This document shows, piece after piece, positions 31,201 to 52,093 of a stretch of 64,000 nt of DNA. This DNA comes from a virus. The stretch is taken from positions 124,001 to 188,000 of the IMG/VR virus record IMGVR_UViG_3300033273_000282. One strand, written 5' to 3'. The translations under genes and the position numbers were made by a program. Within the stretch, counting starts at the first letter, position 1, and the number at the start of each line of letters is the position of its first letter. The notes below the pieces were generated by a model. That model was not told the DNA's origin. It did not search any database and was given only the letters and a program-made list of their open reading frames with translations.

Positions 31201-33108
31201 GGTTACAACATCAATGACCAGCGTGTTGCTGGTGTCATCGGTGACACTGCTCTGCCCGAGCTGCTGGGTCGTAATAAGTATTTCGCTGACAACCTGTATC
31301 TGGTTGCTTCAAGTGAGACTTACGAACTGTATGTTCCCGACTTCTTCTGTGCTACTGGTACTGCTCCTGTTGGTAACTTGGCTAACAATGGAGTTTATAC
31401 ACTCTACTCCGATGAAGCCGCTGTCAATAACATCGGTACAATCACCATTCTTGCTAACGGTATTTCCGAAGTTAACGACACCACTACTGGTTCCATCTAC
31501 ACAACGATTAGAGGTACAATCAGTTTCGTTGGTAACTACACCAACAAAGATATCAAGGTCTTTGGTCCTAACCCTGGTACTAAGTGGACTGTTACTTCTT
31601 CCAACCTGCTGACCACTGGCGCAAGTCAAGTGTTCGCTATGAGCAACACCGCTAACGGTGCTCTGCTTGAAATTGGTAGAACTAACATCGTTGCTACCCC
31701 AACCATTGACTTTAGATCTGGTGCTCTGGCTTCTGACTATGATGTAAGATTTGAAGTTAGCGGTGGCACCGCACAGAACGGTGAAGGTGTTATCGAACTG
31801 AAGACCAGTTCCTTCACCCTGAACGGCAACACTGTATGGCACTCTGGTAATGACGGTGTTTCCTCTCAGTTGGACGCACACTATGTTGATGGTTACATCC
31901 AGAGCTCTTCTAACACAAACAATGCTCTTGTAAGAAGAACATCAAGCGGCGACATTAACATCTCTGACGTATACGCTGATCAAGGTATCTTCGCCAACAC
32001 TGGTGAATCCATCCTTCAACTTGCTGATAGCAACGGTATCAACCTCGGTAAGGCAGGCACTAACGTTCTGTCCCTCAGAGGTAGACAGAATACCAATACT
32101 GGTTACATTGAGTTTGGTAATGATTCCAAGAAACTTGGTTGGAACGGTACTCACCTGTCCTACGGTACAATCTACTTCCGTAACAACAGAATCGGTATTG
32201 GCAATGATAACCCACAATATGATCTTCACGCCGCAGGTGATATCGTCACTGGTAGCACAAGCAGATCCGCTAATACAGTTGTTCGTGCTCTCTCGGGAGA
32301 CAGCAACCAAGCAGGCTTTGAAGCGTACGGTAACAGCCAAGGTACTGGTTACCTGTACATAGGTCAGTCTACTTCTTATGGTGGTGGTATTGCCTATAAC
32401 GGCGACAACTCCCCCGCAGCGTTCGGTTCTGAACAGGGTGACGATATCACCTTCTACAGAAGAAACAACGGCACTGACACCCGTGTCATGAAGTACCGTT
32501 ATAATGATTCTACCGTTCACTTCTTCGGTCAGATTCGCTCTCGCGTTGCTACTGGTACCGCTCCCGTCGATGTAGACTCCACTACAGTATGTAATAACCT
32601 GAACGCTGACCTGCTCGATGGATACCAGGCAAACAACCTGCCTTACCTGTCCAGAGCAGTCAACACCTGGATTACTGATGCGAACGGTCAGCAGAGATTC
32701 TACTTCTCTAACAACTCTCATACATACTTCAGAACTGGTAATGACTTCTTCTTCAGAAATGATTCTGATCAGACATTCTTGTCGATGGATGAGGGTGGTA
32801 GAGTTCACTTCCACGAGCCAGGTAGCAACAGCATTCAGAGCAGCTACAGACTCCAAGTTACTGGAGATAGTGGTCTTAACATTAACGCTTCTGAAAGTCT
32901 CTCTAGTGGTCAGAAGTCTACTGTTCTCAGAGCAACTGGAGACAAGCAGTATCTTGACTCCTATGGTATAATCAAGAGAAACCGTCAGAACATTAGCGAG
33001 TCTATCACCATCAACAACGGTGATTCTTGTGGATCCTTTGGTCCTATCACTATAAATAATAATGTGACCATTCAAGTCGCCCCAGGCGGTGCCTGGGTAA
33101 TTCTCTAA
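22207..33108 (+). CDS. Giant 3633-residue tail fibre protein
   Basis: One of the largest kinds of protein a phage encodes. After an N-terminal region with a VDDDTFTITGTG motif, residues about 237-430 are a pectate-lyase-like beta-helix (DENDGRSAAKPVRTIKKAAQ). Four CIDD repeats follow (bases 25435-27300), shared with the first protein of the window. YDG-type repeats lie at 29125-29360 and 29930-30400. The distal part has four A-D-x-LDG modules (near 30690, 31160, 31870, 32605), typical of T4 gp34/gp37-like and prophage fibres, and GIGNDNPQYDLHAAGDI. The end (GPITINNNVTIQ, then GGAWVIL) is a common cyanophage fibre terminus. AGTAT-like cggag bases precede the start. The adhesin-like genes begin nine bases downstream. 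It probably serves as a long or side tail fibre. Confidence 0.85.
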   Translation: MSLSLNSSQQRLEGSGLVPQGPWTSATYGRANGIVTVTSVAHRLNDEERIYIKFGEDQLLRTIPAGQHEINVVDDDTFTITGTGQNFIEAATACSYRLVRSFVLNATDSMAFTVGTGANEDDAVFINKGPTGNIRVGINNTNPEFDLDVEGQIRTTRSIISDTAQIRNLDVTNEFVTKGLDLRGPNLINFEETDPTASDFGTIYYPTADNPPRQTQNNRIATTKFVYDVATADNGGRVYVSSVPGIGDDENDGRSAAKPVRTIKKAAQIAYSLQQDTEVPEYVSIIVSGGDYVEDNPISLPYNCSLIGDNLRRVILRPLNQDRHMIKASNETYAAGVVFRDHLDNTGTPDWTWKYAYVFDDKQRLYYEPEIAPFSFSPGLENQGRNLFAITFENHTGDNTTLLVGYAVEGGSSSSRGIIESVVFTGPNASPYSSGTIQVLMSDDQSTFLLAEKLYYADIYANIVKTGASPSDSLDVADRESQRPETEVIKHQRYQHVISSETETLRFDGTDLNNVIDTTDNRITIPLHRLYTGAKVIYKVQNEDGAPVEGLTDNTTYFVRVINDNTIELYDTWLDATSLQTTTGIRNLSDEGSGDEHTLFTCRVSVNDDTIYFPNHGLFTGNGIYYRASKAGGIGGLNDNSLIFVYRVDSHHFKLANTQADATNKNISGEDAPVILPLTSEGIGYQRFEKAINVVDISSVTTDVATQQAYNGIIYEVTAASRVIEGINFVGHDYEVGQEVQIYGLPYTALSFGSGASATYTQTANLITVTVSNTDPTVMNVLWPNLKTLGPVGGKGVGVRMVFDDAGNTGHINKSFHIATYQDGTLAQTQSDFNAYLGSPSNLGAGVARYNSSTNEVYFLLRAVDSATRSGTVTVFDNLGDFNGRKYVTHRIERADGYSVKFVTRGSCSRIATALDPSGDQQVCSATNYALMSLRNSPYAFDKVEFGANVQESAKQRDAAETINNNLSFIAEESYAYVKSQYNAGTNTSFSRTGTYTCSGNVMTVTCPRGSAVFAKNSYAFNFSGATTDGAYIVDDCEDHRRFTIILPAASTDSGTVTITIPAPWQTPNSVPPVDRAADGTSLILANKQLIAQEAVARMLIANPTFNIPTGNQACIDDAVDFLEAMAYNLAYGGNDQVYDAAKYYVDGAHVVGEEDESVEVFNNARDIAIQVMRNQTVTIQGSHGLTQIKDFTISPDSANSGVGDRFSDARNLIYKNKEFIAEIAVGRLNANLGYEVVDSRHMDAHDLLIANLDFIAEEAYAVQLAADPNLTTPTGDPQDCIDDVRDILTAVAFNVQHGSNNQVWDAANLYVGTPHIQGEEANSIAIINHARDIAKLVITNRTHTKVGSHEYTQSFDTTITHDQSASGGAYSSADCANVQSTIDSLMLIVTDAITNQTLNGVTKTTPATFSVPTGNQSCIDDIINILEVASWNLAMGGNDFTYDAANLYITGNHVVGEENHSIYAFRQARDIAIECFQNEDVTTGGYTQRTQFKDLTITQDTGLPICANVIASLTALMNVVEVAIDTQSLSSFTRTDSYANRCSDTAAAITSLTGVVTGAIGSTGNPGSLSGVVRTYPVSDQQCIDDVYHVLRAWMYDMRYGGNSKTIEAAQKYIQGTNVNYVTNEVPQTREVYTRAEQLATLAIRNQLPQGEFSQIAPFHNASTTVDSNQPECGASITFLNGLATILDDALSTAGTSLSNVTLTEPSTLLKDDSGLKIVPMLADNLDLPVIEASPYIQNASLISFLGASGAEIDGAKVASPNVPRPGVFLDGNGVERSTFPPQGKSMVANAFTIISVNGGVGYNILNDGYTQLVSVFVIFGGDGVIVQSGGYASLTNSASNFGTRALKATGYRSEAYEFDVGTVTQIRNQTDNNGAQTGRQIIEVGGPITNFPVEDYIIKFEGFRNSDPAKEYFVLGTEQLSGSIGTQITANVTTNDGLGLDLIRESDSTNVSFQNGNLDLLNNAVIKFHRPSICNSSSHTWEYVGAGDTYNALPQNGGVGIPANEAVEEAYGQVYTSGTNEFGDFKVGDFVTIFNRTGSISFVGTVSISELSSIKIVGGSITITGFSDSDELGGAFASDSLLPTQAAVKDYITNKLGPYLNQPYSTNAVPSALVQLTTSGKINIEQIPALRPFNITSVASTAERLAIEDASAGDIAIETTSTSYQVAPSSVDIVNEVITIPSHGLTTGDILTYFQGTSNIGNLADGANYYVIQHAIGANTTDYIKLATSLADAQAGTARNLTSQGTGTHVFRTEGAAISYILENDLDTMYAAFVPNSAYVFSNNSLIIGSQSTAQVIVTNYEGGVVRDILIDDPGSGYATAPGISISAPPSGTQATASCTITNGQVASITITNPGSGYYTAPTVSFTGAPTGGTTATAQGNAARIEARLYVDLANNIKISDIDFILDEANVTVASGVYTHDTFDITITETNHGFSQGDTVYLEFTSGSSTSGFYSVDSIVNANEYTVVAQTALLTSGNYNRKRIVDITRVVNTSASNAQNWTQLSSTNIDASNIVAGVIDPQRLADTGVANSFTFLRGDASFQYAVQSIKFTTDDVLVGESSIQDNSYIEKVNIVNPGSGYTVGTYQNIPMVGGNVQISEQGVARATYTVADVVTGGIVDSVSNLSFTPGSYTPSSTFDVSVSTTDGAGLGAQIRFVTDVNGDIAVDIILDGGSGYNGGDTLEFDGPLFGGTVQQGVSVTVSTLTSSTTLGAITSVSVVTPGTGYTSDFTLTVPSELGQPVQAGSLTAVKGTLSRYYGNASFDLLKANNLTPTTLQAGGSVFGNYGIAKFRKPAAEQALANQDLGGFVITTAGEVTIDQGPGSKLNADKLDGNEGSFYQNATNLIEGILDPQRLANTTYNISISGTADYANTLFCETTAPSSANASLVSAANVGTQLALRSNSVTGIPTDAGGTRAGIMTFRRSATGNSVAQLAFSATDNLYLRGNSDTGTVYGQWAKIWSSENDGAPDPNDPRRGTLPGPDADYLDGKQGLWYQGGYNINDQRVAGVIGDTALPELLGRNKYFADNLYLVASSETYELYVPDFFCATGTAPVGNLANNGVYTLYSDEAAVNNIGTITILANGISEVNDTTTGSIYTTIRGTISFVGNYTNKDIKVFGPNPGTKWTVTSSNLLTTGASQVFAMSNTANGALLEIGRTNIVATPTIDFRSGALASDYDVRFEVSGGTAQNGEGVIELKTSSFTLNGNTVWHSGNDGVSSQLDAHYVDGYIQSSSNTNNALVRRTSSGDINISDVYADQGIFANTGESILQLADSNGINLGKAGTNVLSLRGRQNTNTGYIEFGNDSKKLGWNGTHLSYGTIYFRNNRIGIGNDNPQYDLHAAGDIVTGSTSRSANTVVRALSGDSNQAGFEAYGNSQGTGYLYIGQSTSYGGGIAYNGDNSPAAFGSEQGDDITFYRRNNGTDTRVMKYRYNDSTVHFFGQIRSRVATGTAPVDVDSTTVCNNLNADLLDGYQANNLPYLSRAVNTWITDANGQQRFYFSNNSHTYFRTGNDFFFRNDSDQTFLSMDEGGRVHFHEPGSNSIQSSYRLQVTGDSGLNINASESLSSGQKSTVLRATGDKQYLDSYGIIKRNRQNISESITINNGDSCGSFGPITINNNVTIQVAPGGAWVIL
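25435..27300 (+). repeat. Four CIDD repeats inside giant fibre (coding)
   Basis: CIDD cores lie near 25549, 26047, 26461 and 26956, each followed by a GGN or GSN segment and mostly a DAA-x-x-Y segment and H-x-x-GEE. The units are partly separated by LI-x-AN-x-x-FIA-x-EA helices. The second copy is closest to the first copy in the gene at 1-3390, with a near-identical stretch of DNA at 222-255 and 26022-26058. Confidence 0.8.
33051..33058 (+). promoter_or_regulatory. Possible late promoter inside the fibre 3' end
   Basis: TATAAATA lies within the last 20 codons of the giant fibre, 66 bases before the first adhesin ATG. It matches the promoter core exactly and uses a rare ATA codon. It could drive the three adhesins separately from the 11-kb fibre gene. 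Spacing is longer than at the intergenic promoters. Confidence 0.45.
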
Positions 33109-33116
33109 GTAAATCT

Positions 33117-33869
33117 ATGAGTAGGTTATACGTAAATAATATCCGCGCTTACAGCGGATCAACTATTTCCATTCCTGCCACTACTGCCCTCTCTCTTGGT
33201 GGAGCCAAGATTGACGAGAACTCTGTTCTGCCCAGTGCTTCTGGGCAGGCTAACCGAGCAGTTGGTAGTGATGGTGAGCAAGTTGTATATGACACTTACG
33301 GTGCTCAGTCGATCCAAGTGTTCCAAAGTTCTGGAACATACACTAAATCGGCTGGCGTCAATACCGTTCTTGTCAGGCTTGTAGGTGGCGGTGGTGGTGG
33401 TTCAGGTCATGCTGAATCTGGTGGTGCTGGTGGATACGCTGAAAGAGTTTGCGATGTATCTGGAGTAAATACAGTATCCGTTGTCGTTGGACAGGGTGGT
33501 GCTGGTACTTACTACTCTGGTAGATCGAGCCAAGGTGGTTCTACTTCATTTGGTTCTTTCTGTTCTGCTACTGGTGGCGATGGCGCTAACCAGTCTTTCC
33601 AACATGCTGGTGGACTGGGGGGAATCGGTGCTGGTGGAGATGTTAATATGTACGGCGGCGGTGGATCTGCCCACGGTAGATATAACGGAGCAGGTGGATA
33701 TTCCTTCTTCGGTGGTTGCGCTGCTAGAGGACACCCCCGTGGTGGCGACTATTCAAGAAACCACCAATCAAGATGTGCTCCTGGATCGGGTGGCGCTAAC
33801 GGCTGGTTTCGATCCTACCTCGGACCAGATGGTAAACACGGTATGGTAGTAATCTGGGAATTTAAGTAA
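33117..33869 (+). CDS. Glycine-rich adhesin-like protein, copy 1
   Basis: A 250-residue protein and the first of three tandem paralogues. The N-terminal third is a short beta region (MSRLYVNNIRAYSGSTISI, then FQSSGTYTKSAGVNTVLVRL). The C-terminal two-thirds are glycine-rich (VGGGGGGSGHAESGGAGGY, TYYSG, ANQSFQHAGGLGG, MYGGGGSAHG, RGHPRGGDYS), ending in VVIWEFK. Glycine-rich scaffold strands alternate with short variable loops rich in Tyr, His, Ser and Asn. This recalls the T2 gp38 adhesin, which caps fibre tips, but no direct homology is claimed. It follows the giant fibre by eight bases, as gene 38 follows gene 37 in T2. It has more cysteines than its siblings (FCSATGG, GGCAARG, SRCAPG). Confidence 0.75.
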   Translation: MSRLYVNNIRAYSGSTISIPATTALSLGGAKIDENSVLPSASGQANRAVGSDGEQVVYDTYGAQSIQVFQSSGTYTKSAGVNTVLVRLVGGGGGGSGHAESGGAGGYAERVCDVSGVNTVSVVVGQGGAGTYYSGRSSQGGSTSFGSFCSATGGDGANQSFQHAGGLGGIGAGGDVNMYGGGGSAHGRYNGAGGYSFFGGCAARGHPRGGDYSRNHQSRCAPGSGGANGWFRSYLGPDGKHGMVVIWEFK

Positions 33870-34644
33870 ACAATGTCTATTCTTAAGGTCAATGAATTGA
33901 GAGCCCAGTCGGGCAGTAACGTAACCATTCAAAGTGGTTATAGTCTTCGCCTGGGAACTAAGACACTGGATGCTTCTAGTGTTATGCCCTCGCCCTCTGG
34001 TCAGAATGGTAAAATTCTTACCAGTAATGGATCTACTAGATCATGGACTGAACATGGTGCCGTATCGATGCAGGTATGGACTTCCAATGGAACTTGGAGC
34101 AGACCATCTGGGGTAAAGAGAATTCTTGTTAGAATCTCTGGTGCTGGCGGTGCTGGCTCGGGTGTTGGTGAAGCAGGTGGTGCTGGTGGATACGCTGAAG
34201 AAATTATCGACGTTACTGGTATCTCTTCTGTTTCTATTACTGTAGGTCAGCCTGGTTCCTGGGGTGGTACTTACTACTCAGGTGGTGCTGCTAATGGCGG
34301 TACTACTTCTTTCGGTAACTATCTCTCTGCCTCTGGTGGTAACGGTGCTAACCGTAATTACCAGCACTGTGGAGGACTTCCTGGCGTAGGCTCAGGTGGT
34401 CAACTTAACATCTACGGTGGCGGTGGATCTGGTCACGAGTATTGGTCTGGTTATCCTGGTGGCGGTTCCTTCTGGGGTGGCGCAGGTGCGACTGGTCACC
34501 CTCGCGGTGGTCACTATGCTTACACCCACCAATATAGAGCCGCTCCTGGTAGCGGTGGTTCTCCTGGGTATCACACTTCTCGTCGTGGTGCTAGGGGTAT
34601 GGCTGGAATCGTAGTAGTTTGGAACTTCGCATAAACAATGTCTA
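33867..34644 (+). repeat. 13-base junction repeat flanking adhesin copy 2
   Basis: TAAACAATGTCTA spans the stop of one gene and the start of the next at 33867-33879, and again at 34632-34644. The identical junctions bracket copy 2 and fit an origin by unequal tandem duplication. Confidence 0.65.
33873..34634 (+). CDS. Glycine-rich adhesin-like protein, copy 2
   Basis: A 253-residue paralogue of the preceding protein. The shared frame is VNELRAQSGSNVTIQSGY, then TWSRPSGVKRILVRISG, AGGAGGYAEEIIDVTG, TYYSGGAANGG, RNYQHCGGLPGVGSGG, NIYGGGGSGHEYWSG, ATGHPRGGHY, RAAPGSGGSPG and VVWNFA. Loops after TYYSG and after GGGGS differ from copies 1 and 3. The gene starts three bases after the previous stop, at a 13-base TAAACAATGTCTA junction that recurs before copy 3. 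The role proposed is distal receptor binding. Confidence 0.75.
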   Translation: MSILKVNELRAQSGSNVTIQSGYSLRLGTKTLDASSVMPSPSGQNGKILTSNGSTRSWTEHGAVSMQVWTSNGTWSRPSGVKRILVRISGAGGAGSGVGEAGGAGGYAEEIIDVTGISSVSITVGQPGSWGGTYYSGGAANGGTTSFGNYLSASGGNGANRNYQHCGGLPGVGSGGQLNIYGGGGSGHEYWSGYPGGGSFWGGAGATGHPRGGHYAYTHQYRAAPGSGGSPGYHTSRRGARGMAGIVVVWNFA

Positions 34645-35393
34645 ATATCCGTATCAATGAACTCGACGCTGCGTCGGGAACTACTATTCTTATCCCCGAT
34701 GGATACAATCTATCCCTCGGCGGCACTACGCTGAACAAGAACTCGATTCCCCCACCACCAGCGGGGAACGCTGGTAAGTTTCTTGTTAGTGATGGAACTT
34801 CTGCGTCGTATAAAAACATCGGTCCCGCTAGTATTCAGACTTTCTATAGCAGTTCTACTTGGACTAGACCTCCTGGGATTAACCGTGTTCTGGTCCGTGT
34901 AGTCGGCGGCGGCGGCGGTGGATCTGGACACTCAGAATCAGGCGGAGCAGGTGGCTATTCTGAAGAGGTAATCGATGTCCGTGGAATCTCGTCTGTTACT
35001 ATTACTGTGGGCAATGGCTCTACGGGCGGCACTTATTATTCTGGTAATGGCGGAGGCGGTCAGACATCCTCATTCGGAAACTACCTTTCTGCGTCGGGTG
35101 GTCTCGGTGCTAACCAGTCTTACCAACATTGCGGTGGTCTTGGTGGTTTGGGCTCTGGTGGCAATTTGAATATCTACGGTGGCGGTGGTATCGGACACAT
35201 GAACTACATGGGTCATGGTGGCGGATCATTCTTTGGTTGTGGCACCATGAGCGCTCATGGTAATTGGGTACAAGGTACCCGTTCTAACCAACTTCGTGCT
35301 GCTTATGGTGCTGGTGGAACGTCTGGTTATCAGCGTTCTTATCAAGGTGCCAATGGCATGCAGGGGTGCGTTATTGTAATGGAGTTTATTTAA
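34638..35393 (+). CDS. Glycine-rich adhesin-like protein, copy 3
   Basis: The third paralogue, 251 residues. It keeps TWTRPPGINRVLVRVVGG, GGGGSGHSESGGAGGYSEE, TYYSGNGGGG, NQSYQHCGGLGGLGSGG, NIYGGGGIGHMNYMG and GAGGTSGYQRS, ending in VIVMEFI. It lacks the HPRGG segment of copies 1 and 2: that loop reads SAHGNWVQG. The core resembles copy 2 more than copy 1 in the LNIYGGGG region. A late promoter for the downstream enzyme operon starts three bases after its stop codon. Three intact copies suggest alternative or mixed fibre tips. Confidence 0.75.
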   Translation: MSNIRINELDAASGTTILIPDGYNLSLGGTTLNKNSIPPPPAGNAGKFLVSDGTSASYKNIGPASIQTFYSSSTWTRPPGINRVLVRVVGGGGGGSGHSESGGAGGYSEEVIDVRGISSVTITVGNGSTGGTYYSGNGGGGQTSSFGNYLSASGGLGANQSYQHCGGLGGLGSGGNLNIYGGGGIGHMNYMGHGGGSFFGCGTMSAHGNWVQGTRSNQLRAAYGAGGTSGYQRSYQGANGMQGCVIVMEFI

Positions 35394-35425: not shown

Positions 35426-35941
35426 ATGGCTAAAAGTTGTCTTGTAGATTACAGAGGATTTATCACCGACATCAGAGAATGCGGTGATGAATTTGAAGTA
35501 TACCAAGGTCCCGATTCTCATATCCGCTGGGTCATTTGTGATGATGACAACGTGGATAATACTTGGGTCCTTTATAACGGGGAGTTTTTCCCTGGAGATC
35601 TTCGCCTGGAACGTAACCAGGATATGAAGCGTAAGGTTGCTTACGGATCGATCGAAGAGCAGTTGGACATGATGTACTGGGATCAGGTCAACGGAACGAC
35701 CACCTGGAGAGATCATATTGGCTCGATCAAATCAGCGGAACCCACTCAGTCCGTTGCTGACGCTGATCCTACCTTCTACGCTGATAAGCGAGAGTTTGAG
35801 ATGGGTACTGAGGATGCTCCTGCCTGGGAAACTCTTCCCGCAGTAAAGCGTCAGAAGATCACCACCTTCAAGAATGGGACAGTTTATGAAGAGGGCTGGG
35901 GTCCTGACCCTGTGACTGGCAAACCTGTTAGACTGGCTTGA
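35426..35941 (+). CDS. Small tail-type protein heading the enzyme operon
   Basis: A 171-residue protein. The first 60 residues (CLVDYRGFITDIRECGDEF, then DDDNVDNTWVLYNGEFF) form a small beta module seen in cyanophage tail proteins. The middle (YGSIEEQLDMMYWDQVNG, then WRDHIGSIKSAEP) resembles short segments in phage tail proteins where a G-x-I-x-x-QLD-x-x-Y motif precedes a helix. The C-terminus is charged and Trp-rich and was not recognised. It is the first gene after the operon promoter and is probably a virion component rather than an enzyme. It would be a candidate substrate or partner for the enzymes, but that is inference. Confidence 0.65.
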   Translation: MAKSCLVDYRGFITDIRECGDEFEVYQGPDSHIRWVICDDDNVDNTWVLYNGEFFPGDLRLERNQDMKRKVAYGSIEEQLDMMYWDQVNGTTTWRDHIGSIKSAEPTQSVADADPTFYADKREFEMGTEDAPAWETLPAVKRQKITTFKNGTVYEEGWGPDPVTGKPVRLA

Positions 35942-35958
35942 GGATATCCATCTAGATT

Positions 35959-37527
35959 ATGATTGATAAAATTTGTATTGTTGGCGGCGGCACCGCTGGA
36001 TGGATTGCCGCTGCTTCTTTGATTAGATTTTTTCCTAAAAAAGAAATTACTCTGATCGAATCAGAAGAGATCCCCACCATTGGTGTGGGTGAATCTACCA
36101 CCCAGTTCTTTAGAGACTGGACTCGGGAGATGTGTATCTCTGATGTCTGGATGGATGAGTGTGAAGCCACCTATAAGTACAGCGTGAAGTTTAGAAACTT
36201 CAGCGAGTACGGTGATTTCCATTACCCATTTTTTCCTGGTAAAGAGCCACCTAACGCAAAGCTGGGACTTCTGGATTGGTTCCTTCATTACCGTGCTACT
36301 AACGGTAATCCAGAAAAGTCCTTCTGTGAGTGGATGGTTCCTTATTGGAAAGTCATCGAAGATAATAAGGTTGTTCCTCGGGACGTTGATTACTTCAGCT
36401 ACTTGGACAATGCTGGGTATCATATGGATGCTCAGAAGTTTGCTGAGTATCTCCGTCGGGAGTTCTGTGTTCCTCGTGGCGTCAAGCACGTTAAGGGTAC
36501 AGTAACTGAGATTGATCACGATGAGACTGGTATCAAACGTCTATATGTTGGCGATGTGTTCTACACTGCCGACCTCTTTATTGACTGTACTGGATTTAAG
36601 TCTCTGCTTCTGGGTGAAACTCTGGGTACCGAATGGGATGAGTTCCCCTTCCTGATCAATGATCGTGCCTGGGCAGTTCGCCTGAAGTATAAGGACAAGA
36701 AGACAGAGATGCTCAACCATACTCTGTGTACCGCACTGGGTAATGGCTGGGTTTGGCATGTCCCCCTCAGCACTCGCTACGGCACTGGATATAACTTCAG
36801 CAGTAAGTTCATCTCTGATGAGGATGCTCTGGAGGAGTTCAAGTCGCACCTGGGCGAAGAATTTGAGGATCGTCAAATCAGTGACTTCCGTTTGATCAAG
36901 TGGAAGAACGGTATCTCTAAGAAGATCTGGAATAAGAACGTCGTTGGTATTGGACTCTCTGCTGGCTTCATTGAACCCCTGGAATCCAATGGACTCATGA
37001 GTGCTCATAACTTTGCCATGTATCTGTGTGATGCTCTGACAGCACATAATGGTAAGGTGAACACATTGATCAAGGATCAGTTCAACCGTCGCTGTCGTCA
37101 GAACTTCCAGAACTTTGCTTACTTTGTGGGCAACCACTTCATGTTATCCACCAGGGATGATACACCCTACTGGAAGTACATCACTCAGGATATTGATTAT
37201 CTCAGTGCTCACGTTCAAGATGAGTATCGAGTGTATCCTCAGAACCAGATCTTCCTGGACATGCATGACATGAGCATCTGGAATATGAGTAACCTTGAAG
37301 GTAACGCATATCTTGCTGCTGGATTCAACCAGCATCCAGTTACTGAATGGCACGCTGACTACATGGAGAGGCGGCATAGCCTTGACTTAAGTCAGTGGAG
37401 GACGCTAGAATCTGGGTACGAACTCCACCCCGATGCGGTGAGGGAGATCGATGAATTTCCAACACCAGCAGAGTTCTACTATGAGGACGTTGCTGGTATA
37501 GACATGCCCTACTACATTCATGGCTAA
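35959..37527 (+). CDS. Flavin-dependent tryptophan-halogenase-like enzyme 1
   Basis: A 522-residue protein of the PrnA/RebH family, which uses FADH2, oxygen and halide to make a hypohalous species that halogenates aromatic substrates. Visible hallmarks are the FAD-binding GGGTAGW at residues 9-15, ATYK with the predicted catalytic Lys73 (PrnA Lys79), IDCTGFKS at 208-215, the WVWHVP motif at 264-269 (family W-x-W-x-I-P) and EPLESNG at 339-345, whose Glu342 matches the halide-site Glu of PrnA. A viral member, VirX1 of cyanophage Syn10, was shown to prefer iodide. A separate flavin reductase is needed and none was seen here. It overlaps the next halogenase by eight bases. Confidence 0.9.
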   Translation: MIDKICIVGGGTAGWIAAASLIRFFPKKEITLIESEEIPTIGVGESTTQFFRDWTREMCISDVWMDECEATYKYSVKFRNFSEYGDFHYPFFPGKEPPNAKLGLLDWFLHYRATNGNPEKSFCEWMVPYWKVIEDNKVVPRDVDYFSYLDNAGYHMDAQKFAEYLRREFCVPRGVKHVKGTVTEIDHDETGIKRLYVGDVFYTADLFIDCTGFKSLLLGETLGTEWDEFPFLINDRAWAVRLKYKDKKTEMLNHTLCTALGNGWVWHVPLSTRYGTGYNFSSKFISDEDALEEFKSHLGEEFEDRQISDFRLIKWKNGISKKIWNKNVVGIGLSAGFIEPLESNGLMSAHNFAMYLCDALTAHNGKVNTLIKDQFNRRCRQNFQNFAYFVGNHFMLSTRDDTPYWKYITQDIDYLSAHVQDEYRVYPQNQIFLDMHDMSIWNMSNLEGNAYLAAGFNQHPVTEWHADYMERRHSLDLSQWRTLESGYELHPDAVREIDEFPTPAEFYYEDVAGIDMPYYIHG

Positions 37528-39085
37528 AAGTATTTGTATTATTGGCGGTGGCAGTTCAGGATGGATGACTGCTGCCGCTTTTGCTGTCCGTTTTCCAGAT
37601 TGGGATATCACTCTAGTTGAAAGTGAGTGGTCTAAGGCTATTGGTGTAGGCGAATCCACCCTAGGGCATTTTAATCGGTACCTGGATTGTTTGGGTATTG
37701 AGGATAAAGACTGGATGCCTGCGTGTAGCGCAACCTATAAAGTATCGATCCAGTTTACCAACTGGAAGAACGAAGGTGATGTCTTCCAATATCCTTTCGG
37801 GGACTTTGACTTTTCCCGTGGAGGATTCCTAGATTGGTATCATCTTCACAACTTCTTTCCAGAAAAGTTCCCTGATACATCGTTTGCTGAGTTCTACAAT
37901 CCGATCTCCTTCTTGGCTTCTGCCAATAAGATGTGTGATACGGATCAATATATTCCAAACTTTAGCAGACGCTGGAACGCCGCCTACCACTTTGACGCTG
38001 ACAAGTTCGGGCAGTGGTTGCGGGAGAACCTCTGTAAGGATGTAACCCATCACAGAGGTGACATCTGTGGAGCCGTACATAAACACACGGGTGATATTGC
38101 TTACCTGCTCGATGAAGAGGGGCACCAATATCATGCTGATTATTTTATCGACTGTACTGGATTTAAGTCAGCAATCCTAGAAGGATTCATGGGAGTTCCC
38201 TTTATCTCCTTTGAGAATGATCTCCCTAATGATTCGGCAGTAGCAGCACGTATCCCCTACACTAATCGTAGGGAACAGATGAGAAATACTACCGATGGGT
38301 ATGCTCTGGATAATGGCTGGGTGTGGACTATTCCCACTTGGGATCGCATTGGTACTGGTTATGTGTACTCATCTAAGTTCTGCTCACAGGAGCAGGCAGA
38401 GAAAGAGTTCCGTGAGCATGTTAAGTGGGACGGAGAAGTTAAGCACATTAAGTTCCGTCATGGTAAGCACAAGTATGGATGGTCTAAGAATGTCATTGGT
38501 ATTGGACTATCTTATGGTTTCCTAGAGCCACTAGAATCCACAGGTCTCTTTACTACACATGAAAATATCCTAAGACTGATTGACACCTTTGAAAGAAGGA
38601 ACGGCAAGATCACTCAACTGGATATTGACGGATTTAATCACGCTGTATCATACGAACTTGAAGCAATGAAAGAGTTTGTGTACATGCATTATTATCTGTC
38701 ACCTAGAGATGACACTCCTTACTGGAGGTATTACACTGAGCGCAGTCCACTGACATATGAGGAAATGTATGATAAAGTGGTAAGGTCACCTAGACTGTAC
38801 CAGGAGTTCATACATAACTTCAATATCGCTAATGCTCCCAAAGACCTTGGAGGATTGGTCTATATCGCTGCTGGTCTTGGATACCATCCATTGACTATGA
38901 CGGATAGTCTTCATACGAGAAATCGTAAAGAGTATCCTCAAGAGGAAATGGAAACCACTGTTACACAGTTTGAGAAATATAAGACCAGTCTAGAAAGGCA
39001 CGTTGCTAAACTCCCAAGTCACTATGATTACCTTGTTGAAAACATTTATGGGGTTGATAAAGAAACCCAAAAAACCTCGTGCTAG
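37520..39085 (+). CDS. Flavin-dependent tryptophan-halogenase-like enzyme 2
   Basis: A 521-residue paralogue of the preceding enzyme, clearly diverged from it. The FAD motif is GGGSSGW at 9-15. The predicted catalytic Lys74 lies in ATYK, with IDCTGFKS at 210-217, the WVWTIP motif at 267-272 (closer to the canonical form than the first copy) and EPLESTG with Glu339. All expected catalytic residues are present, so both copies look active. The two differ in the substrate-facing segment between about residues 90 and 160, which suggests different substrates or positions. It overlaps halogenase 1 by eight bases and the next gene by 38. Confidence 0.9.
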   Translation: MAKSICIIGGGSSGWMTAAAFAVRFPDWDITLVESEWSKAIGVGESTLGHFNRYLDCLGIEDKDWMPACSATYKVSIQFTNWKNEGDVFQYPFGDFDFSRGGFLDWYHLHNFFPEKFPDTSFAEFYNPISFLASANKMCDTDQYIPNFSRRWNAAYHFDADKFGQWLRENLCKDVTHHRGDICGAVHKHTGDIAYLLDEEGHQYHADYFIDCTGFKSAILEGFMGVPFISFENDLPNDSAVAARIPYTNRREQMRNTTDGYALDNGWVWTIPTWDRIGTGYVYSSKFCSQEQAEKEFREHVKWDGEVKHIKFRHGKHKYGWSKNVIGIGLSYGFLEPLESTGLFTTHENILRLIDTFERRNGKITQLDIDGFNHAVSYELEAMKEFVYMHYYLSPRDDTPYWRYYTERSPLTYEEMYDKVVRSPRLYQEFIHNFNIANAPKDLGGLVYIAAGLGYHPLTMTDSLHTRNRKEYPQEEMETTVTQFEKYKTSLERHVAKLPSHYDYLVENIYGVDKETQKTSC

Positions 39086-39854
39086 ATTCTTTAGCCTGAT
39101 TCCTGGGGCGCATACTTTGTACCCTGTGGTTCGATCTGAAGAACTCGATCGGGATTGGATTAAGCAAGAGAAAGAAGACTATAGGGAACGGCAAACTAAG
39201 TGCCCTATGGCTAATATCATAAACGCGATTCCTTTTAACCAACCCCATAGTATTGGTAAGTGTCCAGCGATTAACTCTGTGATGCGAACTGGGTATGTTG
39301 TTCGTGCTCCAGCTGACTTTAAGGTCCATACTAATGGAGATGGACATACCATCCTCTTTACCACAACTGCTTTCAGTCCTCCTGGATCTGACTATGTGGT
39401 CCTTCACGATAGTGATACGGCTAAGTGGTTGATGGATTCAACTAAGGATAATGTTATCGATCAGGTTATCAAAGTCAATACGTGTTGGAGAGTACAAGCA
39501 GATGATGATATTGTGTTCCTCCAGACTAAGGTTCCTTTTGTAAATGAATCTCGTTTCAGCGCTATTACTGGTATCCTTGATCCACGATCGGCTTATGAAA
39601 TCAATGTTCAACTCTGGTGGCATGTGAAGGAAGGGGATGAAACTATCAAAGCAGGAACTCCCCTAGCATGTTATGTCCCTATCTCTCGCAAGCTTCTAGA
39701 AGATCTGAATGTGGATATCGACATAGCCACTCCAGAAGATTATGTTCTAGAGAACGAGTTTCAATATACAGCCTATAATGAATTTCCTGACACGGTGAAT
39801 GTTACCAGGCGTCAGTTAAAAACAAACAAGATCCTTCGCAAGTATTGGAAATGA
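39048..39854 (+). CDS. DUF6065-like protein
   Basis: About 268 residues from the ATG at 39048; a TTG at 39003 and an ATG at 39024 are alternative starts, and no good ribosome site decides. Features include RARFFSLIPGAH near the start, KCP-x-I-x-S-x-MRTGY-x-V-x-APADF in the middle, then VNTCWRVQA, FLQTKVPFVNESRFSAITGI and GTPLACYVPISRK. This order (a CP motif, a GY and PAD strand, a W strand, a GTP-L-x-x-x-x-P strand) resembles the DUF6065 family, whose function is unknown. The call is from pattern memory only. It overlaps halogenase 2 by 38 bases, which places it firmly in the enzyme operon. Confidence 0.65.
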   Translation: MGLIKKPKKPRARFFSLIPGAHTLYPVVRSEELDRDWIKQEKEDYRERQTKCPMANIINAIPFNQPHSIGKCPAINSVMRTGYVVRAPADFKVHTNGDGHTILFTTTAFSPPGSDYVVLHDSDTAKWLMDSTKDNVIDQVIKVNTCWRVQADDDIVFLQTKVPFVNESRFSAITGILDPRSAYEINVQLWWHVKEGDETIKAGTPLACYVPISRKLLEDLNVDIDIATPEDYVLENEFQYTAYNEFPDTVNVTRRQLKTNKILRKYWK

Positions 39855-40231
39855 ACATCCCCACATTTAATACACCTGAACACCAAGAAGAGTTTGAACT
39901 CGTCTTTGCTGAAAAAGCAGTAGAGTATGTCAAACTCATGAATGTTGTGAGAGAACTGATGTATGGTACTGGTAATGGTAACTATGCTAATCTCCCTGGA
40001 TCATGCCTAGAAATAGTCAATGACATCACACGTTCTCTACTCTATGATTGTGAAACTCAATTCAAAGAGTATCACCCAGAGTATAAGACTGATGAAGATG
40101 AGATCTTCATTCCACGTAAGTCATTCAAAGAAAATGTAACTGAAGCACTGCTAGAAGCAAACCAGAAGTTCTGGAATAGTGGTGATGAACCTACCGAACT
40201 ACAGTGCGTTGATCATCTTACTGACGAGTAA
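39851..40231 (+). CDS. Small helical protein of unknown function
   Basis: A 126-residue protein starting at the ATG of an ATGA overlap with the previous stop. It is mostly helical and acidic (TPEHQEEFELVFAEKAVEYV, then CLEIVNDITRSLLYDCETQF). It was not recognised. The next oxygenase starts inside its stop codon (TAATG). The tight coupling suggests a partner or substrate-presenting protein for the enzymes, without direct support. Confidence 0.65.
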   Translation: MNIPTFNTPEHQEEFELVFAEKAVEYVKLMNVVRELMYGTGNGNYANLPGSCLEIVNDITRSLLYDCETQFKEYHPEYKTDEDEIFIPRKSFKENVTEALLEANQKFWNSGDEPTELQCVDHLTDE

Positions 40232-40836
40232 TGACTATCCATCCTTTGTTCTCGGTTCCAGTATTCAAGGGGCATCTTTGCCCCACCGAATATCAAGAAG
40301 CCGAGTTTGATGATATCCTCAACAGGATGTTTTTGGATTGTAAGTTGGGTGACTTTACTGGGGAGACTGGGTTGTCTACCGCACCCAACGGTATGAACCT
40401 TCATAAGATCTCAGAGTTGAAATGGTTCTGGGAGAGAATTGATTATGCTGTGCGAGACTACTGGGTAAACATCCTTGGATATAGGAGGATGTCTTACGTT
40501 GAGTGTCAGCACTCTTGGGCAAACAAACACTTTTCTAATGACAGCACCGCAGAGCACAGTCATAGAGATGGTTGGAATGGTAGATGTCAGGTCTCTGGCG
40601 TATACTACTTTAAGAAGCCAAAAGGATCTTCTAACATCCACTTCTGTAATCCAAACGATTATATTTTAAGGATGACTCCATACGAGCACATGACAGGCAT
40701 AGATACTATATCTACTGAAGTGACAGCAGAGCAGTACGATTTTATTCTCTTCCCCTCCTGGGTTAGACATAGAGTCCCACCAAGCAATGCTTCTCAGAGG
40801 ATCGCTATATCATTTAATTACCTTGGTTATGATTGA
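40231..40836 (+). CDS. 2OG-Fe(II) oxygenase-like protein 1 (PF13759-like)
   Basis: A 201-residue protein of the putative 2-oxoglutarate/Fe(II) oxygenase group typical of cyanophages. The double-stranded beta-helix core shows H109-S-H111-R-D113 (an H-x-D iron motif), VSGVYYFKKP, then FILFPSWVRHRVPPS with the distal His180 and R190 for the 2OG carboxylate before IAISFNYLG. The N-terminus (IHPLFSVPVFKG) matches the family start. Such enzymes hydroxylate proteins or small molecules; the substrate cannot be read here. It overlaps the neighbour genes by one and eight bases. Confidence 0.85.
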   Translation: MTIHPLFSVPVFKGHLCPTEYQEAEFDDILNRMFLDCKLGDFTGETGLSTAPNGMNLHKISELKWFWERIDYAVRDYWVNILGYRRMSYVECQHSWANKHFSNDSTAEHSHRDGWNGRCQVSGVYYFKKPKGSSNIHFCNPNDYILRMTPYEHMTGIDTISTEVTAEQYDFILFPSWVRHRVPPSNASQRIAISFNYLGYD

Positions 40837-41611
40837 AGACTTTAAGATTCTTCCAGTCCCTAAACACTTAGCACTCTTTGTCAAGCCATTTGATGAGTGG
40901 AACTGGACTTATCACGGGTACTACTGGCGTATCCGTGATATGTTCTATGAACTAGATAAGTTTATTGAAGTCCTTAAGTGCTATCCCATTGAGGATATGA
41001 ACAATGCTGATAGTGCGGACGATCCGAACCCTTTCGCGCAAACGTCGATACCTTATTGGATATTTGCCCCCATAGCGGAGCAGATCAGAAACTTCATCAT
41101 TGTCAATCACTTCAAGCAAGAAGTATCTTTCTCGCTACACGATGAGCGTCTCTCTGAGTGGGGTAACGTATACTCTAAGAAACACTCTAGACCTGTTGGG
41201 TGTTGGCAAATGCCCCATCGAGATTTTGGTACCGATGAAGGATTCATTGGCAACCTCTGGCTTTCTCACCACGAACCAAATGAAACAGGAACCGCGTTCT
41301 TTGACTATAAAGGAACGATTGATGAGGGACGGTACGATTTCCAAATCGATCCAAATCACCACAGGTATAAAGAGTGGCATAATTGGCACGGAAGCGGAGC
41401 CGATCACGACGACCGATGGATCAACTTCGACTCAAATAAGCAACGGCATTGGGGTTTCATTAAGAGAGGTTTCGCAGCAGCTGAATATGGAACTATGACA
41501 CTTTACGATGCGAACGCTATCCACTCACCGTACATCCCTGATAGTGTAGAATGGCGTTGGAGCCATTGCTTCGGATTCAAGTATACTCCTTTACGAAATG
41601 TTCTTAGATGA
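40829..41611 (+). CDS. 2OG-Fe(II) oxygenase-like protein 2
   Basis: A 260-residue protein; the ATG at 40829 overlaps the previous gene by eight bases. The likely iron triad is H130-R-D132 in QMPHRDFG and H232 in NAIHSPYIP, followed by R243 in SVEWRWSHCFGF. The beta-strand spacing (GFIGNLWLSHH, TGTAFFDYKG, YGTMTLYDANAIH) fits the 2OG-dioxygenase jelly roll, but the N-terminal 100 residues are unlike those of its neighbours. An unusual His/Trp/Asp-rich insertion (HNWHGSGADHDDRW) sits between the motifs. The family assignment is from the motif and is less secure than for oxygenase 1. Confidence 0.7.
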   Translation: MIEDFKILPVPKHLALFVKPFDEWNWTYHGYYWRIRDMFYELDKFIEVLKCYPIEDMNNADSADDPNPFAQTSIPYWIFAPIAEQIRNFIIVNHFKQEVSFSLHDERLSEWGNVYSKKHSRPVGCWQMPHRDFGTDEGFIGNLWLSHHEPNETGTAFFDYKGTIDEGRYDFQIDPNHHRYKEWHNWHGSGADHDDRWINFDSNKQRHWGFIKRGFAAAEYGTMTLYDANAIHSPYIPDSVEWRWSHCFGFKYTPLRNVLR

Positions 41612-42161
41612 AATCTTCCCTACCCCAATATGGGGAGCGGATCTCAATCTTGATGTGGATAGCATCATGTATTGGGCATACCGCCAGAAAGAAGAAGATG
41701 AAGGTAGGATCATATCTAATGTTGGTGGGTGGCAATCAAATGATTACAGAAATTTTTCTGGAACTCCACTCCTCCCCCTGACGGAGGCAATTTCTAAGCT
41801 TGCTATTCAAGCCAGCGAAGACCTGGGTATACCAGAACCTGCTGATGCTATTGTTAACTTGTGGGTTAACATCAATCCTAGACTTTCATATAATCAAGTT
41901 CATGTACACCCTGAGTGTAAACTGTCTGGTGTCTTCTATGTGAAAGCAGAGAAGGATTGTGGTAATCTTTGTTTTACTAGAGGATCTAATGACTTTGCTC
42001 TAGGAACGGTTGCTCCGAATCAAACTAGATATAGTAGTGCTGAATATGAGTACACGCCTAAACCAAATCGCTTGATTATTTTCCCAGCGTGGGTGATGCA
42101 TCATGTGAAAGCTAATCTATCCTATTCTGATAGGATATCTTTGTCATTTAATTTACGATGA
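41598..42161 (+). CDS. 2OG-Fe(II) oxygenase-like protein 3 (PF13759-like)
   Basis: A 187-residue protein of the same group as oxygenase 1. It has EIFPTPIWGADL at the start, LWVNINPRLSYNQVHVHPE with H102, H104 and E106, CKLSGVFYVKAE, then RLIIFPAWVMHHV with the distal His and R179 before ISLSFNL. The acidic ligand is Glu rather than Asp, which is known in this group. The resemblance to oxygenase 1 is partial, so the two are diverged paralogues and not a recent duplicate. It overlaps the previous gene by 14 bases and the next by 4. Confidence 0.85.
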   Translation: MFLDEIFPTPIWGADLNLDVDSIMYWAYRQKEEDEGRIISNVGGWQSNDYRNFSGTPLLPLTEAISKLAIQASEDLGIPEPADAIVNLWVNINPRLSYNQVHVHPECKLSGVFYVKAEKDCGNLCFTRGSNDFALGTVAPNQTRYSSAEYEYTPKPNRLIIFPAWVMHHVKANLSYSDRISLSFNLR

Positions 42162-42772
42162 AAGAGTTTAAGAATTTTCTACCAGTATCTCAAGCACTTG
42201 AGATTCATGACATCCTTACTTCTAGTATCTTCCCATGGTACTGGCTTGATGATGTAACTGTTTCTCCTGAGGAGAGAGATGAGGTTCCAGCATATTACAG
42301 GTCTCAACCTGGAATGCATCATACTCCTTTTGTTGATGGTCGCGCTAGTGAGTGGTACGATAAGTTTAGTTTCATCTATCACTACATTCTGGATGCGATG
42401 GAACTGGATTATAAGGAATGGCAACTGGCTCGGATTCGATGTGGATTAAACTTCCCCACCTTTAGGGATGAGCACATGCTCCACAACCAGCCACACATTG
42501 ATTACCCAGAGACTCAAGTGGGGGATCACTTCACCTGTCTGTATTATGTGAATGATTCGGACGGTCCTACAGTTGTGTTCAACGAAACCGAAGAGTCTGA
42601 TAAGTACACAATTAAGTATCAGTGTCATCCAGAAAAGAATAAACTCTTTGTCTTTAATGGTAAGCACTATCACGCATCCTCATGTCCCAAGCATCATGAT
42701 GCTAGAATGGCATTGACAATTAACCTTTGTAGCAGAACTCGAAATGTGGAACAGTTTCTTCGCGGCGTCTAA
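42158..42772 (+). CDS. 2OG-Fe(II) oxygenase-like protein 4
   Basis: A 204-residue protein starting at an ATGA overlap. The motifs are QPHIDYPE (H113, D115), HFTCLYYVNDSDGPTVVFNE (the jelly-roll strands), then FVFNGKHYHASSCP with His172 and R183 before MALTINLCS. This is the prolyl-hydroxylase-like order H-x-D ... H ... R. It is closer to the P4H-type group than oxygenases 1 and 3 are. The substrate is unknown. Confidence 0.8.
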   Translation: MKEFKNFLPVSQALEIHDILTSSIFPWYWLDDVTVSPEERDEVPAYYRSQPGMHHTPFVDGRASEWYDKFSFIYHYILDAMELDYKEWQLARIRCGLNFPTFRDEHMLHNQPHIDYPETQVGDHFTCLYYVNDSDGPTVVFNETEESDKYTIKYQCHPEKNKLFVFNGKHYHASSCPKHHDARMALTINLCSRTRNVEQFLRGV

Positions 42773-43427
42773 TTTATTAGGCAAAGATCAAGCGGCTTAC
42801 GTTCCAGATTTTCTCAAGTCTCCTGAGAAGTATTGTTCTTGGGAGACTGTAGAGGATGCCTTACATAGATCCGATATGTATTGGGAACTCATCAATCCCA
42901 ATGGGGGCAAAGATGATGTCGGTGAGTATAAACCAGCATGGGCTAGAACACCAGACCAAGACAAAAGGCACATTCATGATCACATCATGAGTGGTAAAAG
43001 TTTTGTTATCTTGTCTTATAGTAGAGCGAACGCTAGAGTTAGATCTCTATGTGCTGAGATAGAAAGGCACTTCAATGTGAATACTGACATCCATGTATAT
43101 GGAGCGAGAGATTCTGCTAATTCTTTCAAGTGTCATTATGATCACTTTGCCAATTTCATCATCCAATGCGAGGGTGAAACTGATTGGGTAGTCTATAAGA
43201 ACAGGGCTACCTCTCTATGGGAAGCAAAGAATGATAAACCTGTAGATGAATCAAATTATGAAGTTGACTGGAAGGGGGTTCTCAAACCTGGAGATATGCT
43301 GTATATTCCAGATAGGGCGTGGCATAAAGCCACACCAACTTCCAGAAGACTGTCAATGAGCATCCCATGTATGCCCACTGTGATACCCTCTAATTTCTAT
43401 GACCGAACTCATTATAAAATCACATAG
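42744..43427 (+). CDS. JmjC/Cupin_4-like oxygenase 5
   Basis: A 227-residue protein. The central SFKCHYDHFANFIIQCEG (H131, D133), then TDWVVYKN and GDMLYIPDRAWHKATP with His194 followed by RRLSMSIP, is the cupin-4/JmjC arrangement. It is seen in ribosomal-protein hydroxylases and related peptide hydroxylases. This subfamily largely acts on protein side chains, which favours a protein substrate for the cassette. It overlaps the previous gene by 29 bases and the next by 29. Confidence 0.75.
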   Translation: MWNSFFAASNLLGKDQAAYVPDFLKSPEKYCSWETVEDALHRSDMYWELINPNGGKDDVGEYKPAWARTPDQDKRHIHDHIMSGKSFVILSYSRANARVRSLCAEIERHFNVNTDIHVYGARDSANSFKCHYDHFANFIIQCEGETDWVVYKNRATSLWEAKNDKPVDESNYEVDWKGVLKPGDMLYIPDRAWHKATPTSRRLSMSIPCMPTVIPSNFYDRTHYKIT

Positions 43428-44031
43428 AAAACCATTTGTCAAACTGGTTAGGCAAATGGTATCTCCTAATGTTATTGATCTTCTTGCTACCGAGTTTAGG
43501 CTTATGCGAGATGCTCTAAAAGCAATGGGAAACAATGAGGGTTACAATGACCCTACTGTCCCAAACACATTTTCTTGGTACTCTCCCCTTTGTTTCGAGT
43601 CTCTAAGTTTGGTTCTCCAACCAAAAGTCGAGAGGATCTTAGAAGAGAAATTGTATCCGACCTATTCTTATGGTCGCATATATACTGAAGGTAGCGAGCT
43701 TGTTCGGCACGTTGACCGAAGAAGTTCTGAAGTAGCAGTAAACGTCAACATCGCAAGGGATGAGGAGCACCTATCGTTCCTCTACTTTGAATGGGAAGGC
43801 AATCTAAGAAAGGTTGACCTTGAGCCAGGAGATGTGGTAATATATTCAGGATCACTCATTCCCCACTGGCGTGAGAAGTATACTGGTCGAGAGCAAATGA
43901 ATGCTTTCATGCAGTATGTCTTTGCTAATGGTCACTACAGTGATCTAAAGTATGATACCCGTCCCTATCTTGCTACTCCATATGAGCTGACAGAAGGACA
44001 CATTAAAGATGAAGTGAAAAACTATGTCTGA
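43399..44031 (+). CDS. 2OG-Fe(II) oxygenase-like protein 6
   Basis: A 210-residue protein. It shows LYPTYSYGRIYTEGSELVRH followed by V and D106 (the H104-x-D106 motif), then VAVNVNI, LSFLYFEWEG, and LEPGDVVIYSGSLIPHW with His156, followed by R158/R164 and MQYVFANG. The layout is the standard 2OG-Fe(II) jelly roll of the P4H type. The N-terminal helix (KLVRQMVSPNVIDLLATEF) is typical of such domains. It overlaps the JmjC-like gene by 29 bases and the next by 8. Confidence 0.8.
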   Translation: MTELIIKSHRKPFVKLVRQMVSPNVIDLLATEFRLMRDALKAMGNNEGYNDPTVPNTFSWYSPLCFESLSLVLQPKVERILEEKLYPTYSYGRIYTEGSELVRHVDRRSSEVAVNVNIARDEEHLSFLYFEWEGNLRKVDLEPGDVVIYSGSLIPHWREKYTGREQMNAFMQYVFANGHYSDLKYDTRPYLATPYELTEGHIKDEVKNYV

Positions 44032-44770: not shown

Positions 44771-44778
44771 TATAAATA
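44771..44778 (+). promoter_or_regulatory. T4-type late promoter TATAAATA
   Basis: TATAAATA lies 42 bases before the protease ATG, in the 47-base divergent gap next to the minus-strand gene. Confidence 0.7.
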
Positions 44779-49954: not shown

Positions 49955-50764
49955 ATGGCTAAACCAGGAACCAGACAACAACTTATCGATTATGCTCTGA
50001 GAAAACTGGGTGCCCCAGTTCTGGAGATTAACGTCGATGACGATCAGATCGATGATCTGGTGGATGATGCTATCCAGATGTACAACGAAAGAATGTACGA
50101 TGGATATATCAAAACCTATCTGAAGTATCAATTCGATCAGGCAACTATTGATGCCATGAAAACCAACAGCACCACAACGGTGACTCAAGTTGGTGGTAAG
50201 GCAACTGACTTCTTAGAAGCCAATAACTATATTACAGTTCCCGATTACGTTACCAGCGTCATCAAAATCTTTGACTTTACGTCGAAGAATACTACAAACC
50301 TTTTTGATGTCCGCTATCAGTGGAGACTCAATGATCTGTGGGATCTTACACAGACTGAGATCTTGACCTATGAGATGGTCAACCGTAGATTGGAAGATAT
50401 CTACTTCCTGCTGGAAGGGCAAAAACAAGTTAGATTTGACATGAGAGGTCAACGTCTATTCATGGATATTGACTTCCAAGAGGATGTGGCAGCAGGAGAT
50501 CACTTGGTCTTTGAATGCTACAGAGCTCTGGACCCAGCAGATCATGCTGGTATCTTTAACGATCTCTGGCTCAAGAGATATGTCACTGCTCTGATTAAGA
50601 GGCAGTGGGGTCAGAACCTGATCAAGTTCCAAGGTGCTCAACTCCCTGGTGGTATCACTCTGAATGGGAGAGAATTGTTTGATGATGGGAACAATGAGGT
50701 GAACAAACTAGAAGATGAAATGCTCAGTCGTTATGAAATGCCACCCCTGGATATGATCGGATGA
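49955..50764 (+). CDS. 13: Neck protein gp13
   Basis: 269 residues, of the T4 gp13 family (309 residues in T4), which joins the head portal to the tail. The start RQQLIDYALRKLGAPVLEIN and the pattern EINVDDDQIDDLVDDAIQMY are the family signature. The segment YRALDPADHAGIFNDLWLKR and the C-terminal GITLNGRELFDDG also match. The gene follows the protease without a gap and its stop overlaps the gp14 start. Confidence 0.92.
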   Translation: MAKPGTRQQLIDYALRKLGAPVLEINVDDDQIDDLVDDAIQMYNERMYDGYIKTYLKYQFDQATIDAMKTNSTTTVTQVGGKATDFLEANNYITVPDYVTSVIKIFDFTSKNTTNLFDVRYQWRLNDLWDLTQTEILTYEMVNRRLEDIYFLLEGQKQVRFDMRGQRLFMDIDFQEDVAAGDHLVFECYRALDPADHAGIFNDLWLKRYVTALIKRQWGQNLIKFQGAQLPGGITLNGRELFDDGNNEVNKLEDEMLSRYEMPPLDMIG

Positions 50765-52092: not shown

Positions 52093-52093
52093 G

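Follow-up and report, generated by a model that had tools for sequence, protein, structure and literature searches.

A tandem pair of diverged flavin-dependent halogenases in a T4-like virus and its association with tail-fibre and oxygenase genes

Introduction

Why does a virus maintain two flavin-dependent halogenases side by side, and what might these enzymes halogenate? The question is raised by positions 124001-188000 of the 200,309-base virus record IMGVR_UViG_3300033273_000282, a stretch of 64,000 nucleotides called the window throughout the paper, in which two such genes, here named HalA and HalB, lie in tandem. The genome is T4-like with cyanomyoviruses as its nearest named relatives; the virus is marine and its host probably cyanobacterial. 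Tandem halogenases are already on record, two prnA genes of 1593 and 1524 nt having been tabulated for Syn9 in 2010 (PMC3037559), and the pair is not new in kind. The gene block around it, which was absent from a first-pass annotation of the window, is more informative on function than the two halogenase genes alone. Both genes are genuine and well maintained, and what deserves further attention is their conserved link with tail fibres and oxygenases: judged from the gene context, there is about an even chance that the virion is the target, with Gly-rich tail fibres as the most likely substrate.

Results

The Halogenase Pair

Both open reading frames are intact and overlap by 8 nt. The Pfam family Trp_halogenase (PF04820) matched HalA with an E-value of 6.8e-92 and HalB with 2e-104, covering the catalytic region and far exceeding the cut-off, while PHROG 2928 was matched with 5.9e-133 and 3.4e-150, respectively. 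The GxGxxG motif binding flavin adenine dinucleotide (FAD) is kept as GGGTAG in HalA and GGGSSG in HalB. Both Trp residues and the Pro of the WxWxIP motif are kept as well, exactly in HalB (WVWTIP) and with an exchange of I to V in HalA (WVWHVP). K73 and E342 of HalA and K74 and E339 of HalB align with the active-site residues of VirX1 and RebH, and this Lys and Glu were found invariant or almost invariant across 69 homologues. The residues named in the first-pass annotation were confirmed by alignment, with WVWHVP at 264 and WVWTIP at 267, and the FAD motifs by the sequence. The AlphaFold 2 (AF2) model of HalA, with a predicted local distance difference test (pLDDT) score of 89.8, aligned with VirX1 over 504 residues at 2.2 A (Z 44.0, near the values for PrnA, RebH and others). 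Judged by the Pfam, PHROG and PDB hits and by the model, HalA and HalB almost certainly belong to the flavin-dependent halogenase class. A search for a phage flavin reductase (PF01613) over the 200-kb record yielded none; therefore a host reductase was assumed.

At the amino acid level HalA and HalB are 38.7% identical. A maximum-likelihood tree of 166 rows separated them, and in a bootstrapped tree of 64 rows they fell into a HalA clade of 27 rows (support 100/97) and a HalB clade of 23 rows (99/97), each with many phages. A tree forcing both proteins of the window together as sisters was rejected (approximately unbiased test, p-AU 2e-57). The separate clades and this rejection rule out a recent duplication in the phage. 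Ratios of non-synonymous to synonymous substitution rates (dN/dS) against close orthologues were 0.05-0.07 for HalA and 0.07-0.10 for HalB, indicating strong purifying selection, and because of these low values both genes are considered maintained; decay of one copy is ruled out by dN/dS and the intact motifs. The first-pass annotation had proposed two distinct, diverged and apparently functional copies, and had named near-identical recent duplicates as the contrary outcome. Since the trees separate HalA from HalB and dN/dS is low, the latter was not what was found, and the former agrees with the intact motifs, the trees and dN/dS, with activity predicted from sequence and in keeping with two different roles. 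Very probably these are two distinct and ancient roles.

In mixed pairs HalA comes first and HalB second. Other arrangements were pairs within the HalB type (P-RSM6, L128), an A-A-B triple (L110) and a pair inside the sister clade HX (L008). Membership in tandem arrays was found for 25 of 27 HalA but for 42 of 93 HalB genes; HalA appears to need a second halogenase and may thus follow HalB or work alongside it. Tandem halogenases are common, both on many viral contigs and at bacterial loci. In three viral contigs (L187, L190, L192), three or four consecutive halogenase-like genes belong to different clades, among them one clade with PLEANG and an altered WxWxIP motif (e.g. WTWKIG).

A total of 10 alignment columns separate core HalA from HalB rows, and the most telling of them is the halide-site position, PLES-N-G (N344 in HalA) versus PLES-T-G (T341 in HalB). 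Asn was found there in 21 of 22 core HalA rows (95%; one PLESNS counted), Gly in all 5 rows of the group HA3, and Thr in 93/93 HalB rows. The bacterial enzymes, like HalB, have Thr at this place (PLEST), whereas the HalA clade has Asn. Other separating columns are located directly after the FAD site (GVGEST-TQ.FR versus LGH.N). The WVWHVP of HalA had been read as a departure from the canonical motif; the residues are correct, but V is present in 86% of core HalA rows and is not peculiar to this copy. A difference had also been noted in the stretch that probably faces the substrate. HalA and HalB are indeed only 16-20% identical over HalA 413-523, but within each type this C-terminal tail varies almost as much (24-25% for HalA versus Syn10 HalA, 17-26% for HalB versus VirX1), and its divergence was dropped as an unspecific sign of different substrates.

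VirX1 and Its Partner

The crystallised VirX1 (PDB 6QGM) matched CPUG_00131 along its entire length. This is the second of the Syn10 halogenase genes; the first, CPUG_00132, is a HalA. HalB is therefore the relative of VirX1, and HalA the counterpart of VirX1's partner. VirX1 is thus not equally related to the two copies: HalB falls into the VirX1 clade, whereas HalA stands in a clade apart, which has a halide-site change of its own. The iodide preference ascribed to VirX1 is found in a 2021 review (I > Br > Cl; PMC8407142); it is disputed in a 2024 paper, according to which the preferred iodination was later ascribed to hypoiodous acid in solution (PMC11021962). Unlike Trp halogenases, VirX1 has no helical lid, and its pocket is large and open (PMC7948982, PMC8407142). 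The literature searched contained no characterisation of Syn10 HalA, no report of a natural substrate of VirX1 and, within this limited library, no description of a conserved link between halogenases, tail fibres and oxygenases; the text on the S-SZBM1 virion proteome does not mention ORFs 46-50.

The Conserved Gene Block

The pair is embedded in a conserved block of Gly-rich fibres, phrog_1787, HalA, HalB, phrog_7084 and six predicted 2-oxoglutarate (2OG)-Fe(II)-type oxygenases (Table 1). Using home-made profiles over all fetched loci, the order TTTq(A)B7OOO..JO was found in dozens of divergent contigs. The block is located before the neck genes in the window, S-RIM44, Sf-FP1 and Sf-FR1, and away from them in Syn10, P-TIM40, S-CREM1, S-WAM1 and S-SZBM1.

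A phage collection of 50,697 records was searched with tail fibre 2 at an E-value of 1e-8, and 20 records were matched, with a coverage of at least 80% in all. Strong phrog_1787 matches, HalB-clade halogenases and tail fibre 2 occurred in the identical 20 of the 50,697 records, which represent 9 lineages, and all 14 phage records with phrog_7084 are among those 20. For comparison, gp13 was found in no fewer than 439 records whose names identify them as Synechococcus phage or cyanophage. Counts on contigs were made for non-redundant representatives with enough flank, scoring fibre and phrog_1787 within 3 kb upstream. Both were present at 11/11, 8/10 and 2/3 loci of the three HalA groups (21/24) and at 68 of 83 HalB loci, but at none of 10 loci of the sister clade HX. 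Downstream, phrog_7084 was found at 22/23 HalA, 57/84 HalB and 0/9 HX loci, and at least two 2OG-type genes at 64 of 84 HalB loci. These contigs had been fetched via the halogenase; a block without halogenase was testable only in the searches of the phage collection.

The motif TATAAATA, the late-promoter motif of cyanomyoviruses (PMC2984593), occurs four times in the window (3459, 21622, 33051, 44771), each time 27-66 nt ahead of a gene start. The copy at 33051 is followed only at 44771, before the gene at 44813, by the next one, and the whole block lies between these two. A motif ahead of a fibre gene was also found in S-RIM44, Sf-FP1, Sf-FR1, S-WAM1 and S-SZBM1. We are aware of the fact that the motif count is not significant (4 versus 1.73 expected, with 4 reached in 8 of 100 shuffles); it was dropped as statistical evidence, and the positions alone were used.

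The model of phrog_7084, the companion of HalB, reached high confidence (pLDDT 89.7) and a dUTPase-like fold (Foldseek E 3e-4; VIA-align Z 9.9, 126 residues at 4.3 A). In agreement with the fold match, a PDB sequence search yielded only a dUTPase, at an E-value of 0.39. Inspected by eye, the conserved residues of 46 phrog_7084 homologues lacked the RSG-type phosphate and the Gly-rich C-terminal motifs of dUTPases. Pfam DUF6065 weakly matched 5 of the 46 members (best 9e-4). One guess is that phrog_7084 helps the halogenase as an adaptor or scaffold.

The assignment of the six neighbours as putative 2OG-Fe(II)-type oxygenases is based on their metal-site residues and 2OG-binding Arg: HxD...H...R is invariant in phrog_1644, phrog_274 and the JmjC protein, phrog_2954 carries HxD...H with Arg, and the two PF13759 proteins carry HxH...H...R. 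The names given by PHROG, minor coat protein for phrog_1644, DNA endonuclease V for phrog_274 and ferrochelatase for phrog_2954, look misleading given the kept HxD...H motifs, and the metal-binding residues of these three proteins were invariant across 35-61 homologues. In the fibres, Tyr135, His165, His188 and His209 (fibre 2 numbering as aligned) are near-invariant and are candidate modification sites. Lys and Arg are scarce in these fibres.

Table 1. Features of the gene block and its borders (positions in the window)
Feature	Position	Strand	Remarks
T4-type late-promoter motif	33051..33058	+	66 nt before first tail-fibre gene
Gly-rich tail-fibre gene 1	33117..33869	+	PF21722; PHROG 863
Gly-rich tail-fibre gene 2	33873..34634	+	relatives in exactly the 20 phage records with HalB-clade halogenase
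Gly-rich tail-fibre gene 3	34638..35393	+	third of the three fibre genes
phrog_1787 protein	35426..35941	+	conserved position between tail fibres and halogenase
HalA	35959..37527	+	flavin-dependent halogenase, HalA clade, 522 aa; K73, E342, WVWHVP 264-269, PLESNG 340-345
HalB	37520..39085	+	flavin-dependent halogenase, VirX1 clade, 521 aa; K74, E339, WVWTIP 267-272, PLESTG 337-342
phrog_7084 protein	39063..39854	+	dUTPase-like fold, HalB companion; frame opens upstream, 39015-39851 modelled
phrog_10289 protein	39845..40231	+	seldom in block elsewhere
2OG-Fe(II) oxygenase (PF13759), predicted	40231..40836	+	H109, H111, H180, R190 invariant in 60 homologues
2OG-Fe(II)-type protein, phrog_1644	40787..41611	+	HxD 144-146, H246, R257 invariant, 35 homologues (frame numbering as aligned)
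2OG-Fe(II) oxygenase, predicted	41598..42161	+	PF13759; TIGR02466
2OG-Fe(II)-type protein, phrog_274	42158..42772	+	HxD 113-115, H172, R183 invariant
JmjC_2 oxygenase (PF08007), predicted	42744..43427	+	HxD 131-133, H194, R202
2OG-Fe(II)-type protein, phrog_2954	43399..44031	+	HxD 104-106, H156
neck genes gp13, gp14, gp15	49955..53101	+	structural boundary downstream of block, here and in several related phages

The gene at 44813-49954, between the block and the neck genes, encodes 1713 aa that include a subtilase (Peptidase_S8) domain as well as virion-protein and Ig-like segments. The C-terminal extensions of gp14 (50761-52092) and of the sheath stabiliser gp15 (52094-53101) match tail-fibre and baseplate families.

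Discussion

HalA and HalB would be part of a late virion-modification block. By the mechanism of the family, host-supplied FADH2, O2 and halide would yield hypohalous acid, which would pass through the tunnel to Lys73/74 and halogenate an electron-rich aromatic ring with the help of Glu342/339. The gene context suggests as substrate not free tryptophan but the Tyr, Trp or His side chains of virion proteins that this late operon encodes, and the neighbouring 2OG-Fe(II)/JmjC oxygenases may hydroxylate the Gly-rich fibres as well. HalB would be the core enzyme, and HalA, which hardly ever occurs as the sole halogenase, may serve a second site or have a different halide preference, for which the exchange of Thr to Asn at the halide site is a candidate cause. 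As an outcome, the host-binding fibre would be chemically altered. The full proposal, a dedicated late operon which halogenates and hydroxylates the phage's own fibres with two halogenases sharing the labour, six 2OG/JmjC oxygenases and an accessory protein of dUTPase fold, is put forward tentatively, at somewhat less than an even chance.

Several points weigh against this proposal. Of the 83 testable HalB loci, 15 have no tail fibre. The linkage can come from joint inheritance of the block instead of a common substrate, and the 20 records are 9 lineages with a shared history and not independent cases. 2OG oxygenases are common elsewhere in cyanophages, with four more PF13759 copies in this record, and the conserved Tyr and His of the fibres may serve structure or metal binding alone. 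Finally, many small aromatic compounds are substrates of VirX1 in vitro (PMC8407142), a promiscuity which fits a metabolite as substrate.

Such a substrate is the literature view, in which the genes are auxiliary metabolic genes: both enzymes would act on free tryptophan or some other small metabolite of the host, one after the other or each on its own substrate, and the halogenated compound, e.g. an antibiotic or a signal, would aid infection, similar to the protection by pyrrolnitrin (PMC2984593, PMC9964418). A halogenated metabolite cluster was also predicted in the jumbo cyanophage S-SSM6a (PMC7824862). However, no biosynthetic genes lie beside the pair, its steady neighbours are tail-fibre genes and oxygenases, a late-promoter motif stands ahead of the block, and the halogenases fitting the metabolite idea (S-SSM7-type, S-PM2/Syn1-type) belong to other clades and other loci. 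We regard this explanation as unlikely, though as the foremost of the alternatives. Another target in the late region, either the giant structural proteins or a glycan bound to the fibre, would keep the virion as substrate; giant structural genes are indeed adjacent (22207-33108, 14448-21626, 5010-11690), but the co-occurrence, which was measured for the Gly-rich fibre, is exact there, and we consider this option improbable. Modification of nucleotides or DNA bases by halogenases and 2OG oxygenases, with phrog_7084 as binder, would fit the dUTPase-like fold of the latter. The dUTPase motifs missing from its alignment and the place of the pair in the late tail-fibre region speak against it, and we give it very little credence.

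A different matter is whether HalA has changed its function, to a flavin monooxygenase or to another halide, via the Asn, or Gly in HA3, in place of the halide-site Thr. HalA keeps the Lys, the Glu and both Trp residues. In PrnA and RebH the halide is bound via the backbone amides of this Thr and the next Gly, and the Asn may therefore be neutral. A change of function seems rather unlikely.

HalB and VirX1 of Syn10 share a clade (99/97), about 44% identity and the same motifs, and VirX1 likewise follows a HalA as its tandem partner, within a similar gene block. HalA, unlike VirX1, belongs to its own clade (100/97) outside that of VirX1. The bacterial Trp halogenases PrnA, RebH and PyrH have the same fold and catalytic Lys and Glu, but only 25-28% identity and another clade, and the pair has no tryptophan-derived biosynthetic genes nearby. 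MibH (5UAO), a lanthipeptide tryptophan 5-halogenase, shares the fold of the pair and acts on a ribosomally made peptide, and ribosomal peptides are therefore possible substrates for this fold; it differs in serving lanthipeptide synthesis, is not from a phage and is not closest by sequence. In the S-SSM6a cluster (PMC7824862) a cyanophage halogenase occurs with 2OG oxygenases and cupin-like proteins as here, but it is of another clade, is accompanied by carbamoyltransferase and sugar genes and was read as metabolite or polysaccharide synthesis.

Bacterial halogenases next to TonB receptors, which we take to be of the BrvH and Xcc4156 type, resemble the phage pair in their tandem arrangement, in a surface-protein neighbour (a TonB-dependent receptor) and, at one locus, in a JmjC_2 gene. 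They differ in forming separate clades and in having neither tail fibre nor phrog_7084. To our knowledge, no native substrate is known for them. A TonB-dependent receptor gene lies directly upstream of the tandem halogenases of Alteromonas marina, and in a Paraglaciecola they are flanked by a JmjC_2 gene and TonB receptor genes. Such marine bacterial loci (L236, L239), where tandem halogenases stand with TonB-dependent receptors and a JmjC_2 gene, parallel the phage block as a second instance of these enzymes beside a surface protein.

VirX1, a well-known biocatalyst, has been studied without its partner HalA, and the gene block offers a concrete candidate substrate for it, the Gly-rich tail fibres. 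If the proposal of fibre modification is true, halogenation would join the known viral modifications of host-binding proteins, and these cyanophage halogenases, together with some of the abundant cyanophage 2OG oxygenases, would shift from metabolic genes to virion maturation. The native role of the VirX1 family would then be a new type of virion modification, which could tune host recognition.

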